From contig NZ_JAVHLD010000002.1 of NCBI RefSeq assembly GCF_031082295.1, positions 110,042 to 174,041 on the forward strand: a stretch of DNA of 64,000 nt. Direction: 5' to 3'. The stretch is from Humidesulfovibrio sp. Lineage in GTDB: Bacteria > Desulfobacterota > Desulfovibrionia > Desulfovibrionales > Desulfovibrionaceae. Positions 7,429-15,314 of this stretch are shown piece by piece. A program made the translations under genes and the position numbers. Under the pieces are notes generated by a model. It was not told the DNA's origin. It was given only the letters and a program-made list of their open reading frames with translations, and made no database searches. How positions within the stretch are numbered: the first letter of the stretch is position 1; each line of letters begins with the position of its first letter.

Positions 7429-10182
7429 CTACTTCTTGCCCTTGGCGGCCGACTTGGCCGCAGGCTTTGCGGCGGGCTTGCCTGACGGCTTGGCCTCCGC
7501 CTTTGCGGGGGGCTTGGCCGAAGACTTCGCTGCGGGCTTCACGGCGCTTTTCTTGCTGGCTGCACGGCGTTCAGCATCCGCTTCGAAAAGCTCCTTTTTC
7601 TTTTTCTCAAAGGTCATGACGCTGCGAAGCGAAGCCAGCCCAAGCGAAAAGACCGTGACCAGAAAGATGAGCCCCTTCTGGAAAGCCCATTTCTGGGCCA
7701 GGATGCCATCCACGAGCCAGTTGTTGGCGACCTTTGCAGAATAGAAGAGCAGCACGGGAATGGTCAAGAGGGCCAGGGCAAGCCCCACCACTTCCATCCA
7801 GATGAAGTTCTTTCCCAGGAGCATGGCGAAGAGCGTGCTGTCGCGCACGATGCGCAACGAGACAAGGCGCTTGGACAGCCCCTGGAGGCGCTCCTCAAGC
7901 TCGGGCAGGTTCCTGCGAGCGGTGCGGAAGTTCCCGGCCATGCGCAAAGGCTGGGTCATGACCCAGTTGATGCGCTTGACGCAGTAGTTGAAGTCGCGGT
8001 TGAAATCGCGCAGGAGCTTGGGAAAGGGGAACCAGCCCGCTTCGTACTGCACGTCGCGCAACCGGTCGGCGTAAAGCATCACGCGGTCCTTGATGCGCTT
8101 GATCTCCTCATCGATCTGCTTCTGCATCTCCTGGAAGAATCCGTCCATGCCGCGCACGACCTCTCGGAAGGCCACGTAGTTCTCCGTGCCTGCCAGGTCG
8201 TTCATGCGGTTCAGGTGGTCAAGGCCTGGCTTGCGGAAGTCATGATCCTCATCGAACCACTGCGGCAGCTCCTTGAGTAGAACCTCAACGCGCTTGCCCA
8301 CCTCCTCCGCCTTGGCCTGAGCGTCCCGCCAGCCGTCGCGCAGGCCCGAGAGCACATGCACGCGCCCACGGTCGATTTCCGTGTCCAGCAGAATGCGGTT
8401 GAAGATCTGCGGATCACGCATGACGAGGTCGGCGAAAATTTCCAGGGACTGGCCGGTGAAGCCCATCTTCACCATGCACACGCCCTCGCGGTAGGCAGGC
8501 TCCAGCCAACGCGGCGAACCGGTGCGCACTTGTCGATACAAACCCAAGGCCTCCTTGTACTCCCCGCCGATCTCGTGCAGACGCGCCAGGAGGAACAAGG
8601 TATAGCCCTGCTGCACGTAGGAGGGACCAAGCCGCCCGGCCTCCTGCCAATAGAACTGCGCCATGTGGGGGTCGTCGGACTCCAGTGAGACGAAGCCCTC
8701 CAGGCAGGCGCCCTCGAAGCTGCGCCCCTGCTTGTTGCTCACCGCGCGCAACGATTCCTTGGCCTTGTCAAGATCGCCTGAGAGAAGCGTGTTGTAGGCA
8801 TCCTTGACGGACAAAGGTTCCTCGGGGTTGAGCTGTTCCGCCTCCACCGGCCACTCCCGGTTCTTGATGCGCGGCAACACGGGCAATAGACCCAGCTGGC
8901 AAGGGGTGACGGTGGAAAACATCGCGCGCAGCAAGACAGACTCGATGCTGTTGTTTCCCTTGATGAGAGCGGTGGTCTGCTGAACGAAGCGGGCGCTGTC
9001 CGTCGGCTCGTCCAACCCCTTGAAGGCCGTGGCCATGTCGTCCAGGTTGACGTTACTCATGTCGCGCCAGACATCCGCCCGGAACGGCGGCATCGTCCGG
9101 CTGGGACACTGGGTGGCGGCATGGTTCTTCAGGCCGCAATAAAAGCATTCCTTCCCGGTTCCGGCCAGCCAGCGGCGTGGCAAAGGCACCTCGATGGATG
9201 CGCCGGACTGGGACTCCTCGCCCCGGAAGCTCACGTAGCACCAGGAATCCAGGGTCTCCTGGTCGCCGCCGTAGCTGATCTCGTTGACCTTGAAGCCGTC
9301 AAGCAGGGTGAAGGCATCGCGGTAGCGCATGTGCAGGAAGTCCGGTGTCAGCCGGTTCCAGTCCAGGCTGAAGCGATTCGGCAGGTCCATGGAAAAAGGC
9401 ATGCCTTTCTGATCGGTGAGTGCGAAAACGCAGGGCCAATATGCGCGCTGAGTAGCCTTCAGCTCATTCAGCAGCGTCGATATCTCCACGCAGTACATCC
9501 GCAATTGGCGGTAGCTTTCAAGCGGAAAAATGACGAAGCCCAGGGCGTCGTCAGACAGGTAGCGTATGCCCAGACGCTGAAACATGGCCTGTACTTCGGC
9601 GAAAAATGCGCGCCAGCCCGCGATGGCTTCGCGCTCGCCGAGCCGCCCCAGCGGACGAATGACCGCGTACCAGTTCGCAGGCGATTCGTAGTCAAGCCCA
9701 TGGTCGACCTCAAGAGGCATCCACCCGCAGCTGGACAGCCCCTGCATGGTGATCATGCTGCCGAGCGAAAGTCCGTTCACATTCTTGACGGACTCGATGA
9801 ACTTGGGATGTACCAGTGTTTCAAGGTCTTCGGCCACGCCAGCCTGCTGGCGCGTCAAGTCACGCGGGACGGAAACGGAAAGATTCAGGTCATACCCGAC
9901 CATGGCGGTGATGGGCACCACCTGGCAGAACAGCGGAAGAGGATTCAGCTTGGACCAGATGTGCAGCTTGGCCAGGGCGCGGTAGATCTCCGGAGTGAAC
10001 GACACCCAGAAGCTCTGGCAGGGGTCTTCCACAAGCTGAACCAGGCCGTGGTCGCGCAGGGTGTGGCCGATGGCGTTGTTGAACGAGCCGGACCAGACCA
10101 TCCAAAGGCCGTACCCGGAACTGATGAGCCGCGCCTGGGAGACACTCGGCAGCCTTTCCAACAGCGTCGAAAGAGTATACAT
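7429..10182 (-). CDS. Large TPR membrane protein with CCHC zinc knuckle
   Basis: 917 residues, with no overall family that I recognise. Four regions are visible. (1) Residues 1-340 are globular and unassigned. (2) A retroviral-type zinc knuckle, C-x2-C-x4-H-x4-C, sits at Cys346, Cys349, His354 and Cys359 ([14 protein letters not shown]). (3) TPR-like helical repeats follow at about 460-620. (4) After a coiled-coil stretch come two membrane helices (about 795-816 and 834-853) and a C-terminal tail from about 859 rich in Lys, Ala and Pro (KPAAK-like repeats, as in histone H1-like proteins). The tail is probably cytoplasmic. Nucleic-acid binding by the knuckle or tail is an inference. It starts at ATG 10182 behind GGAGAAG, 36 bp from the divergent moaE-like gene. 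Confidence 0.82.
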
Positions 10183-11794: not shown

Positions 11795-12742
11795 CTAGAA
11801 GCCGCCGCTGGTGCTGCGCAGAAGATCCGCCACGGCCATGATGGTGCGCGTGTAGGTGTGCGAGTGGTTGTAGCGATAGAGAACGGCCAGCTGGCGCTCG
11901 CGCGTCAAATTCGCCTTCCAGCCATTGGCATTGAGGAAACGTGCGGTGCTCAACAACGCATCCGCCACGCTGAACAGGTCCACACGCCCGTCACCGTCCA
12001 GGTCCTCACCATAGCGCACCGCGTTCGTCGGCATGAATTGGCAGATACCGATGGCTCCGTAGACCGAGCCGGGGATGCTGGCGGGATCAAGCCCGGCAGA
12101 GTCGGCGTACACAAGCAGGGCCTTGAGCTCCTTGTACGCCCAGGCGGCCTTCTGGGCCGTCCGCCAGCGAAGCCACAAGGCCATCTTGGACGAAATGTCG
12201 CGGCGCTCGATCAGTGGGGCAACCAGGGAGAAATCACCCGCCAGGGCCATGCTGGCCAAGGTCGTCAAGGCGCCCCTGCTGCCAACGTTTCGTCCAAGCT
12301 TGGTTTCCACAAGCAGGAGTGCCACAAGGATCTCCTCGGGGACCCCATAGCGCTTGCGAACCTCTCGCAAGGGGCCGCTTTGGCTTTCCAGAAAACTACT
12401 GGCCTGCAAGATGAGAATCGGGTTCAAATAGCTCAGGTAAATTTCCGGCGCCTCGGCCTTTGGCTTGCCCTGGGAGAGCTTCACGTCGAGCAGGGCGTTC
12501 ATCTTGCGAGCCATCACCTGCGGATCGAAGCGCACCTCGGAACGGGCGAAGAGGGACTCCATACGCGCGCGCTCGAACCCGTCCGTCTCCAGTCGGCGCA
12601 CCAACGGGGACCACTCATTGGCAGCGCAGGCAAGCACAGGAGACAACAGCAACATAACGAAAAACGCGGCCCCGAGGGACCGCGCTCCAGTGGAATACTT
12701 CCGCCAGGGATTTCCCAGGGCAGCGAAGATGCCATGCGGCAT
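11795..12742 (-). CDS. Lytic murein transglycosylase, MltB family
   Basis: 315 residues from ATG 12742. It cleaves peptidoglycan glycan strands to 1,6-anhydromuropeptides in the periplasm. The catalytic Glu lies in LLLVETKLGRNVG, and GAIGICQFMPTNAVRYG plus the EF-hand-like EDLDGDGRVDLF are MltB signatures. The N-terminus is a signal sequence ending LLLSPVLAC, possibly a lipobox. The start is uncertain: the strong AGGAGGAGG at 12785-12793 would serve a TTG at 12778, inside the upstream small ORF, whereas ATG 12742 has only a weak site but lies 13 nt after the TAA of that ORF. The two genes are probably coupled. Confidence 0.87.
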   Translation of the reverse strand: MPHGIFAALGNPWRKYSTGARSLGAAFFVMLLLSPVLACAANEWSPLVRRLETDGFERARMESLFARSEVRFDPQVMARKMNALLDVKLSQGKPKAEAPEIYLSYLNPILILQASSFLESQSGPLREVRKRYGVPEEILVALLLVETKLGRNVGSRGALTTLASMALAGDFSLVAPLIERRDISSKMALWLRWRTAQKAAWAYKELKALLVYADSAGLDPASIPGSVYGAIGICQFMPTNAVRYGEDLDGDGRVDLFSVADALLSTARFLNANGWKANLTRERQLAVLYRYNHSHTYTRTIMAVADLLRSTSGGF

Positions 12743-12755
12743 GTCGCCGTGCTGC

Positions 12756-12977
12756 TTACAGGCGATCAAGCGGCACAAAGGCCACCTCCTCCTCAAAGGC
12801 TTCGTCCAACTGCTCAGAGAAATTTCTCACAGGATGTGTGGCGCCGCAAACCTTGCAGCGAAGCGACACCTCGCGTCAGGCCCGGTTGACGAACATTGCC
12901 CCACCGCAAGACGGACAACGCAAACCCTCAAGGGCCTGCGGTTCCGTCCGCCTGCGGTAGGATGACATAAAACCCAT
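12756..12977 (-). CDS. Putative dual-CXXC small selenoprotein with in-frame TGA
   Basis: Read through one TGA codon (12878-12876) this frame encodes 73 residues with CPSC (Cys21, Cys24) before and CKVC (Cys41, Cys44) after the TGA, which is residue 34 (NRA-U-REVSL). The part after the TGA is clearly protein-like (acidic QLDEAFEEEVAFVPL, ending at a TAA), so the TGA is not the natural end. A GGU-capped 8-bp stem follows the TGA at SECIS-like spacing. I recall a curated family called dual CXXC motif small (seleno)protein with this architecture, but cannot check it here. The alternative is a nonsense change of a GGA Gly codon. ATG 12977 has AAGGGG upstream. The gene sits between tolC-type and mltB-type genes on the same strand. 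The function is unknown; zinc or thiol-redox chemistry is plausible. Confidence 0.72.
12842..12860 (-). promoter_or_regulatory. Candidate bacterial SECIS hairpin
   Basis: On the minus strand CGCTGCAA, loop GGT, TTGCGGCG form 8 bp (one G-U pair). The loop begins 23 nt after the in-frame TGA at 12878-12876. Bacterial SECIS elements have a short apical loop beginning with G, often GGU, about 16-37 nt after the UGA, and are read by SelB. The core TGCAAGGTTTGC resembles the E. coli fdhF element. The same bases encode the second CXXC (TGC AAG GTT TGC), so some symmetry could be coincidental. Confidence 0.62.
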
Positions 12978-12987
12978 GCGCCGCCCC

Positions 12988-14400
12988 TTACTTCGCGGTG
13001 GAAAGATCTGGGTTCTTCTCGCCCATTGCAACGTAAAGGCCGGAGATGGCCGTCTGGTAGTCGGAGAGAGCCTGTGAGAGCTGAGCCTCGCTGCTGCTGA
13101 CCTTGGCCTGGGCGTCCAGCACGTCGGTGTTGGTGCCGACCTGAGCCTGATAGCGCGCCAGGGCCATGCGATAGGATTCGCGGGCGGCGTCAACGCTCTT
13201 CTTGGCCACGCCGATGCGGTCGGCGGCCTCACGCTGGGACAAGAGCCCCTGTTTGACCTCGTAGCCTGCGCTGAGGCGGGTGTTGTCCAAGGCCGCTCGA
13301 ACCTTGTTCACGGTCTCGTCGGCGCTTTTGTACTTGAAGAAGGTGCTGCCCCACTGGAAGAAGGTCCAAGAGGCGGTGGCGCCAACGGTCATGTATGATT
13401 TTCCGGTGTTGGAGAGGTTGGGACTACCGGAAAGACCTGGATGGTCACCCTTTTTGTAGAAGTCGACGTCTGCCCCAACCTGGGGATAAAAGTCGCTGGC
13501 CGTGATGCCCGCGTCCTTCTCGGCGATCTGCACGCTCTTGATGCCGACCAGGATGTCCGGACGGCTCGTGAACGCCCGCTTCAGGCACTCGTTCAGGTCC
13601 AGGTTGAACGGAGTGAAAGTAAGGTCGCCGACATACTCCACGGGAGCCTCAAGGGGCAGGTTGAGCAGGGAGTTGAGCTTGGCCCTAGTGGTGTCGAGAG
13701 AGTTCTTGGCCTTGAGCTGGGCCTGCTCCGCGGTGGCAAGGTCAACCTCGGCCTGGAGCACGTCGAGCTTGGGCTTCAGGCCCACGTCGAAGAACGCTTG
13801 CGTGACCTTGAGCTGCGACTTGAGACGCTCCACCGAATCCTCTGCGCTCTTCACGTCCATCTTGGCCTTAAGGTGGGCCAGGAAATTGGTCTGGATGGTG
13901 CTGATGAGGGAGAGCTCCGCCTGGGTCAGGTTGGCCTCGTTCTGTTCCTTGGTCAGCCTGGCTTTCTGGTGTGTCTTCAGCAGCTTGAAGCCGACAAACA
14001 CGGGCTGATGGATATTCAGTCGTCCCGTCCAGGTGGTCTGGTCACCGGAATCGACGCCTGCAGTCGTCTTGGGCTGCGAGCCATAGCGGGAGAAGCCGTA
14101 GGAAGCCGTGGCCGTGGGGAAGAAATCCGCCATGCTCGACTTCACCATGTAGTCGGAGCCCTGCAACTGGGCGCGCGCACCGACCATGGTCGGGTTGGCC
14201 GCCAGGCCGCGTTCCACGCTCTGCTTCAGGTCAAGGCTTGCAGGGACGGGCTGTTCAGCCGCCTGGGTCTGGGCGGCCATTGCGGCAGCCTGCGAAGCGA
14301 CCGGGGCAGCGGCCGGGGTTGAGTCCTGAGCGGAGGCCGGGCCGGCAAGGCACAGAGACAGGCCGAAGGTCAGGGCAAATTGAAGTGCTTTGGTACGCAT
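12988..14400 (-). CDS. TolC-family outer membrane efflux protein
   Basis: 470 residues. Two outer-membrane efflux protein repeats (about 50-250 and 270-460) of alternating long helices and strands, with conserved stretches such as GLAANPTMVGARAQ and AEQAQLKAKNSLDTTRAKLN, are those of the TolC trimer channel. A Sec signal peptide ends ASA-QDS near residue 25. ATG 14400 has AGAGGA upstream; the frame extends to 14664 without support. No periplasmic adaptor or pump gene is adjacent, so it may serve several systems. It lies 10 nt upstream of the small selenoprotein candidate on the same strand. Confidence 0.92.
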   Translation of the reverse strand: MRTKALQFALTFGLSLCLAGPASAQDSTPAAAPVASQAAAMAAQTQAAEQPVPASLDLKQSVERGLAANPTMVGARAQLQGSDYMVKSSMADFFPTATASYGFSRYGSQPKTTAGVDSGDQTTWTGRLNIHQPVFVGFKLLKTHQKARLTKEQNEANLTQAELSLISTIQTNFLAHLKAKMDVKSAEDSVERLKSQLKVTQAFFDVGLKPKLDVLQAEVDLATAEQAQLKAKNSLDTTRAKLNSLLNLPLEAPVEYVGDLTFTPFNLDLNECLKRAFTSRPDILVGIKSVQIAEKDAGITASDFYPQVGADVDFYKKGDHPGLSGSPNLSNTGKSYMTVGATASWTFFQWGSTFFKYKSADETVNKVRAALDNTRLSAGYEVKQGLLSQREAADRIGVAKKSVDAARESYRMALARYQAQVGTNTDVLDAQAKVSSSEAQLSQALSDYQTAISGLYVAMGEKNPDLSTAK

Positions 14401-14519
14401 GGTCTTTTTTCCTCTTATCAGGATGATGAGTAACGGGCGAAGTGGGCCCGTTGTTGTTTCGGATGCTTTCAAACAAGTGTTTATACCCGATGGCCGCGAA
14501 AACCGCAAGTTGCAGAGGA

Positions 14520-15314
14520 TTACACGCTCGCGCACTCCGAGGGGTCGCCCTGGAGTTTTTCGATAGTGTGGGACAAGGCGGGCAGCACCGCGCCCAGGCA
14601 CTCGCGCACAGCCTTGGGGCTGCCCGGCAGGTTCACGATGACCGAGCCGCCAAGGGTGCCGCACACAGCGCGAGAGACTGCTCCGTGCGGCGTCTTGGCC
14701 AGGCTGGTCATGGTCATGGCCCGCTCAAAGCCCGGCAACCGCTTCTCTATGACGGCCAAAGTGGCCTCAGGGGTTACATCCCGAGGAGCCACGCCAGTGC
14801 CGCCCGTGGTGCAAATGAGGTCAAAGGCGTCCTGCAAAGCCAACTGCATCAGCAGTGCGCGGATACCGCGCTCGTCGTCCGGCAGCACGAACCCGCGCGC
14901 CAGGGAAAGCGGCATGGCCGTGCGCACCATCTCCTCGACCAGTGGGCCGGAGGCGTCGACTCGCTGTCCCGCCGCGCCCTTGTCGGACAGCGTAATCCAG
15001 GCAAGGGCAAAGCCGTTGCGCGAGGCCGACAGCAGGCGCTGATCGTCCAGGCCAACGGGCGCGGGCACAAGGGTCTCCAGAAGCCAGCACTGGGCGTCGG
15101 GCAATTGGGCCTGCCCCGGCCACCACATCCGCCCAAGCACCCGATGCTCCTCCTGCTCGCCCTGCAGCACATGGCCGGGCCGCAAGGCCAAGGGACCATC
15201 CGCAAAGGCGCAAGGCACGCCGGGATTGAGCGCCTGAGTCGAAGAATAGACCAGAAAACGCTGGCCAGGGGTCTGGCCCGTGTTTTTAGAGAACCGCAGG
15301 CAGATGTCGCTCAT
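14520..15314 (-). CDS. MogA/MoaB-family molybdopterin adenylyltransferase with N-terminal extension
   Basis: 264 residues. The C-terminal ~165 residues are the MoCF-binding domain that adenylylates molybdopterin before molybdate insertion: TLSDKGAAGQRVDASGP, CTTGGTGVAPRDVTPEA and NLPGSPKAV are hallmark motifs. The first ~100 residues (GQRFLVYSSTQALNPGVPC and onward) are not part of MogA; they could be a MOSC-like or pterin-handling domain, which I cannot assign. The stop is 15 nt from the DUF1614 gene upstream, so they form an operon. Confidence 0.85.
   Translation of the reverse strand: MSDICLRFSKNTGQTPGQRFLVYSSTQALNPGVPCAFADGPLALRPGHVLQGEQEEHRVLGRMWWPGQAQLPDAQCWLLETLVPAPVGLDDQRLLSASRNGFALAWITLSDKGAAGQRVDASGPLVEEMVRTAMPLSLARGFVLPDDERGIRALLMQLALQDAFDLICTTGGTGVAPRDVTPEATLAVIEKRLPGFERAMTMTSLAKTPHGAVSRAVCGTLGGSVIVNLPGSPKAVRECLGAVLPALSHTIEKLQGDPSECASV

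Follow-up and report, generated by a model that had tools for sequence, protein, structure and literature searches.

The closest described system is the selenoprotein family modeled by NCBIfam entry NF041197 (CxxC_Se_CxxC). According to the accessible part of a 2026 review (PMC13188914), NF041197 corresponds to OS_HP3, has the motif RxU, and is credited to Zhang and Gladyshev (2007), which dates its first record to 2007. The same portion of the review enters NF041197 a second time, as hypothetical protein DW with the motif GxU, and attributes it to Xiao and Zhang (2025; PMC12013277). In the excerpted text of a 2022 review (PMC9312934), OS_HP3 has the accession that PMC13188914 gives for DW, so both names have been applied to one sequence. 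The accessible parts of PMC13188914, PMC12013277, and PMC9312934 give no function for NF041197/OS_HP3, the literature covered being mostly that outside subscription journals. Literature searches on the names of the family pointed to no further sources on it, and a search for a selenoprotein joined with a CXXC motif, Desulfovibrio, and SECIS found no paper.

Other small proteins share the arrangement of two CXXC motifs in a short stretch. The FmdB zinc ribbon (TIGR02605), Lar, and HypA resemble the protein described here in this respect and gave weak profile matches, each below its curated cut-off. FmdB scored 18.1 bits (cut-off, 31.3), and the Lar restriction alleviation models PF14354 and TIGR03655 scored 19.9 bits (cut-off, 28.6) and 19.5 bits (cut-off, 39.6), respectively.

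Here we describe a recoded gene that was picked up from raw sequence and that would be truncated at a TGA codon or missed in routine gene calling. Because the family, as cited in the accessible review text, has been known since 2007, what is added here is firmer support for the annotation and a testable proposal for the place of selenium in the protein, not a discovery.

A dual-CXXC gene with an in-frame TGA codon

The window is the whole 64,000-nucleotide stretch of Humidesulfovibrio sp. DNA that was analyzed. Positions 12756 to 12977 of its minus strand comprise 73 codons and a TAA stop (12758-12756), starting from an ATG at 12977-12975 and interrupted by an in-frame TGA at codon 34 (12876 to 12878). 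Read through from 12977 to 12756, the 73-residue translation is MGFMSSYRRRTEPQALEGLRCPSCGGAMFVNRA-U-REVSLRCKVCGATHPVRNFSEQLDEAFEEEVAFVPLDRL, followed by the stop. The sequence-only reading had proposed this frame, with TGA at codon 34, and had given no strand; the frame was borne out, on the minus strand. The TGA also lies between two CXXC motifs, as had been claimed: in the translation, CPSC (residues 21-24; 12906 to 12917) precedes it and CKVC (residues 41-44; 12846 to 12857) follows it. The start codon is backed by congeners whose proteins begin with M/V-GFLSS (e.g., L035, L043, L044, and L046). Frame 1 of the plus strand over 12756-12977 was rejected, as it is without CXXC and contains nothing similar.

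The read-through protein matched NF041197 with 73 bits (cut-off, 40; E = 1.6e-20) over profile positions 1-53 of 53, and its RxU motif is R32-A-U34. The named family of small dual-CXXC (seleno)proteins to which the sequence-only reading had pointed is thus real and is NF041197. The likeness comprises the full-length profile match, the RxU motif, the two CXXC motifs, and the existence of Cys homologs. No defining difference was found; a Leu in the window protein replaces the Cys in the C-terminal PCDR tail of many relatives. That tail, PCDR[LIV], is found in many relatives and corresponds to window residues 69-73, and the window and the sampled congeners shown have Leu or Met in place of its Cys. 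A profile search identified a single NF041197-family match in the window's genome. The nearest named relatives, in one scan, were three uncultured MAGs labeled Desulfovibrionales or delta proteobacteria, with 78-86% identity. The read-through protein hit 26 Pfam families with E values no higher than 1, and none of the 25 listed reached its cut-off.

We compared 12 genus-level sequences, including the window, and obtained pN/pS values of 0.37 for codons 21-33 and 0.36 for codons 35-73. By this sequence measure, constraint after the TGA is the same as before it. Judged from the NF041197 E value and these ratios around the TGA, the dual-CXXC frame is far beyond chance.

Codons found at residue 34 in related genomes

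Homologs were collected from 59 genomes, namely the window's own and 58 relatives. NF041197 matched in 49 of these genomes (over cut-off in 46), giving 55 stretches in total, including the window. Residue 34 of the homologs, a check that had been proposed with Cys, Gly, or Sec in mind, is encoded by TGA (Sec) in 42 stretches and by TGC or TGT (Cys) in 13; no other codon occurs in any of the 55, and Gly is found in none. All nine stretches that scored below the cut-off carry TGA. The 42/13 count refers to these 55 stretches only. When 395 genomes were sampled evenly across the phylum, 112 matched NF041197 (88 over cut-off), and the Sec position was read for part of these matches. A tblastn search of plasmids with the selenoprotein returned no match.

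For conservation, an alignment of 70 sequences was used, made up of all 55 stretches (window included) and 15 further loci. It omits L132, because of its length, and L108, L110, L114, L127, L128, and L134; L108, L114, and L127 carry Cys, and L110, L128, and L134 are out of register with the profile by at least one residue.

These data bear on two readings of the codon that involve no selenocysteine. The first takes it as an ordinary stop, which TGA is by default, so that the product would be a 33-residue peptide and the downstream part a decayed remnant. Purifying selection is, on the contrary, equal on either side of the TGA. The TGA is also kept at the same codon in 42 of the 55 stretches (window included), with the frame continuing past it, and the two cysteines beyond it, C41 and C44, are present in all 70 aligned sequences. 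We therefore consider an ordinary stop highly improbable. The second reading, an assembly or sequencing error in place of a sense codon, is conceivable in principle, since a single base could be wrong in a draft genome such as this one, which comprises 73 contigs. That the same TGA recurs in 11 congeners and in 30 further stretches from other assemblies, and that a codon other than TGA or Cys appears in 0 of 55, makes such an error scarcely credible.

In the genus to which the window belongs, TGA is shared by the window and 11 congeners, G004 has Cys, and G007 and G011 (incomplete) are without a match. One genus thus offers a clean Sec/Cys series, G004 with Cys against 11 congeners and the window with Sec, for a family that is still catalogued as hypothetical. 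Seven Sec/Cys interchanges were counted on a quick tree, and at least four by its starred branches; this tree was built from 53 sequences (40 Sec and 13 Cys) with the Sec column removed, has few columns, and leaves 30 of its 50 inner branches open.

Selenocysteine machinery

The presence of selA, selB, selC, and selD in the genome had been suggested as a check, and all were found. The window's genome encodes a tRNA-Sec (80.9 bits), which ARAGORN also reports as SeC(tca), and profile searches identified SelA (584.1 bits), SelB (384.6 bits), and SelD (327.4 bits). SelA and SelB are encoded on the same contig as the window, approximately 29-33 kb past its end. SelD carries its own in-frame TGA near the N-terminus, in the sequence GUAAK (UxxK motif), and FdhA (1465.4 bits) contains one in-frame TGA.

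Across the 59 genomes, selA was matched in 36 of the 37 that have a TGA form, counting G006 with a partial match below the cut-off, versus 14 of the 22 without a TGA form (Fisher p = 0.001, uncorrected for relatedness). The sole TGA-form genome without a selA match, G010, is 81% complete.

A bSECIS-like hairpin over the codons of the second CXXC

A hairpin resembling a bacterial SECIS element was identified at 12842 to 12860 on the minus strand. It begins 15 nt past the TGA and has an 8-bp stem and the loop GGU (12852-12850); it overlies the codons of the second CXXC, which form its core. The bSECIS rules quoted in the accessible text of PMC13188914 are a loop of 3-9 nt, an upper stem of 4-16 bp, a G in the first two loop positions, a distance of 16-37 nt from the TGA, and an MFE of -7.5 or lower. 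We applied the rules as quoted there. The window hairpin agrees with all four, with a 3-nt GGU loop, 8 bp, 23 nt from TGA to loop, and -10.3 kcal/mol for the local 36 nt. A search of 12600-13200 against Rfam at E up to 10 returned no SECIS family and three matches at E 1.5 to 5.

The hairpin differs between the two forms of the gene. TGA forms (n = 42) make on average 7.29 of the 8 pairs versus 4.85 in Cys forms (n = 13; one-sided p = 2e-7), and against a synonymous-codon null the mean z was -1.26 in TGA forms and +0.10 in Cys forms (one-sided p = 1.5e-4), the local 36-nt p-values being post hoc because that region was picked after folding of 63 nt. As a SECIS test, folding the entire 63 nt gave no distinction between the TGA and the Cys forms (p = 0.49). 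The loop opens with G in 41 of 42 TGA forms versus 5 of 13 Cys forms. Several stem positions are paired with different bases in different TGA forms: pair 25/29 occurs as GC, CG, or AT (paired in 31/42), pair 20/34 as CG, TA, or TG (40/42), pair 19/35 as GC, AT, or TA (38/42), and pair 18/36 as CG or TA (33/42). When the register was shifted from -12 to +15, a single peak remained at the predicted place, with 7.29 of 8 pairs; no other register exceeded 4.71. The Cys forms have their peak at this place too, with 4.85 pairs, since the two Cys codons force part of the pairing.

The window's own hairpin showed no extra stability over its synonymous recodings (z +0.08, p 0.55), which is a point on the side of the ordinary-stop reading. 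The hairpin signal belongs to the family, not to the window's individual sequence. The first x codon starts with A in 34 of 42 TGA forms versus 1 of 13 Cys forms; a SECIS stem-loop lying within the CXXC codons would limit the residues possible between those cysteines.

The comparisons support insertion of selenocysteine at the TGA by the tRNA-Sec, SelA, SelB, and SelD of the same genome, with a hairpin whose sequence also encodes the second CXXC. The original call of a probable selenoprotein gains backing from homologs that have only TGA or Cys at this position, from the sel genes, and from the bSECIS-like hairpin. We conclude with high confidence that this is a functional selenoprotein gene of the known NF041197/OS_HP3 family.

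Predicted fold and placement of Sec34

A structure model computed with the 70 aligned sequences was weak overall, with a mean pLDDT of 65.6 and a pTM of 0.43; for residues 21-50, the pLDDT per ten-residue block was 73-81. The model contains strands at residues 15-20, 27-32, 37-41, and 47-49 and a helix at 50-64. Its first three strands, together with the CXXC pairs, suggest a resemblance to a zinc ribbon. Comparison with solved structures gave no convincing match in Foldseek (best E 0.1), and the best VIA-align Z of 3.6 is under that tool's telling level. A PDB sequence profile search gave no family assignment; its best match was 2jrp_A, "Putative cytoplasmic protein" (E 3.6e-4 over 25 profile positions).

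In the model, Sec34 occupies the turn that joins strands 27-32 and 37-41. By topology, this turn position probably places Sec34 away from the CXXC knuckles. The sequence-only reading had held that a redox or metal residue would fit a position between the CXXC pairs. This is the weaker part of that reading, given the probable placement of Sec34 away from the knuckles.

We propose that the product may be a small soluble protein resembling a zinc ribbon, whose two CXXC knuckles would hold a metal, probably zinc. Sec34, at the central hairpin turn, would be an exposed nucleophile that could act in thiol/selenol redox reactions or in electrophile trapping. A metal-stabilized ribbon with an exposed selenol or thiol for redox or electrophile chemistry is the reading that we favor, and we put its chances at about even. 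More tentatively, and with a probability that we judge to be rather low, the protein could represent a zinc-ribbon selenoprotein with selenium at the hairpin tip, apart from the structural metal, the residue there being an exchangeable nucleophile (Sec or Cys). A zinc ribbon with selenium at its tip is a mechanistic kind that we did not find described in the literature covered.

Conservation leaves some room for a different role of residue 34. The alignment of 70 sequences has C21, residue 34, C41, and C44 as its only invariant positions, and C24 is lost in L057, L060, and L063; residue 34 is therefore kept more strictly than C24, and there is room for it in the metal site. Sec34 might accordingly be a metal ligand itself, or be bonded to a CXXC cysteine, instead of an exposed nucleophile in a turn. 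Against this, the model seats residue 34 in the turn of strands 27-32 and 37-41, and C24 is kept in at least 90% of the 70 sequences, so that most members have all four CXXC cysteines. We regard a ligand or bonded Sec34 as possible, though on the unlikely side, and prefer the exposed nucleophile at the turn.

In L057, L060, and L063, the first CXXC has degenerated to CSHEQ, CPHDQ, and CNHGP, each containing C-x-H, and Sec and the second CXXC are kept.

GxU-type relatives and other variants

A second type of relative with a TGA and a GxU core was found in eight loci (L065, L066, L067, L068, L069, L070, L071, and L072); it scores lower and sometimes co-occurs with the first type. Genome G042, for example, has the first type as a Cys form and the second as a Sec form. 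Like hypothetical protein DW, which has the arrangement C-x2-C, Sec, C-x2-C, these eight relatives show identical spacing and a TGA; they differ from the window protein in their GxU core and are without the DR[LIV] tail. On the basis of the common model and motif, L065-L072 appear to be DW. In whole-genome searches, these DW-like relatives were below the NF041197 cut-off, and one reached 42.5 bits with Sec written as Cys.

Among the loci omitted from the alignment, L108, L110, and L114, from other families of the phylum, are Cys-type or shifted and end in IIYD, not DR[LIV]; they may represent a further subtype. The Sec gene at L132:6998-7507 is of the GxU type, and its frame is open for 170 residues, possibly a C-terminal fusion.

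Gene neighborhood

The selenoprotein gene is closely flanked on both sides by genes on the same strand. Upstream, a gene for a TolC-like outer membrane efflux protein (12988 to 14664, minus strand; PF02321, 204.8 bits) ends 10 nt before the ATG. Downstream, a gene for an MltB-like lytic transglycosylase (11795 to 12742, minus strand; PF13406, 171.2 bits) begins with an ATG at 12742, 13 nt past the TAA; this start was chosen by eye and is probable, and the ORF tool begins the gene at 12796 with a TTG. Given gaps of 10 nt upstream and 13 nt downstream, the gene lies within an apparent single transcription unit, and the TolC-like gene is a probable operon partner.

We examined neighboring genes in a sample of the matches comprising 61 loci, of which 41 belong to the main type (window included) and 20 are lower-scoring, using home-made calls of ORFs of at least 90 amino acids clustered by blastp. 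In 7 of the 41 main-type loci, the TolC-like gene immediately precedes the selenoprotein gene in the same orientation, and in 4 of 41 (G004, G009, G018, and G021), as well as in the window, an MltB-like gene immediately follows it, again in the same orientation; all of these belong to the window's own taxonomic family. The clustering missed the window's MltB-like gene, for which the ORF caller preferred an antisense ORF.

Neighbor clusters that recur at between 3 and 12 of the 61 sampled loci were typed by one Pfam representative each. They comprise UvrC (6 loci), an HDOD-domain protein (5 loci), an HDOD response regulator (12 loci, mostly distant), a glycosyltransferase (7 loci), a poly(A) polymerase head domain, an M50 peptidase, and a class I tRNA synthetase (W/Y) (3 loci each), and one 5-locus cluster without a Pfam match. 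These neighbors look like unrelated genes common within lineages, and none among the 61 sampled loci indicates linkage of the gene to a pathway.

Elsewhere in the window, positions 7429-10182 of the minus strand encode a protein of 917 amino acids that has weak TPR matches only and a C-terminus formed by an Ala/Lys/Pro-rich repeat tail. This protein also contains a 14-residue stretch of Cys/His zinc-knuckle type, which we take to fit the pattern CX2CX4HX4C.
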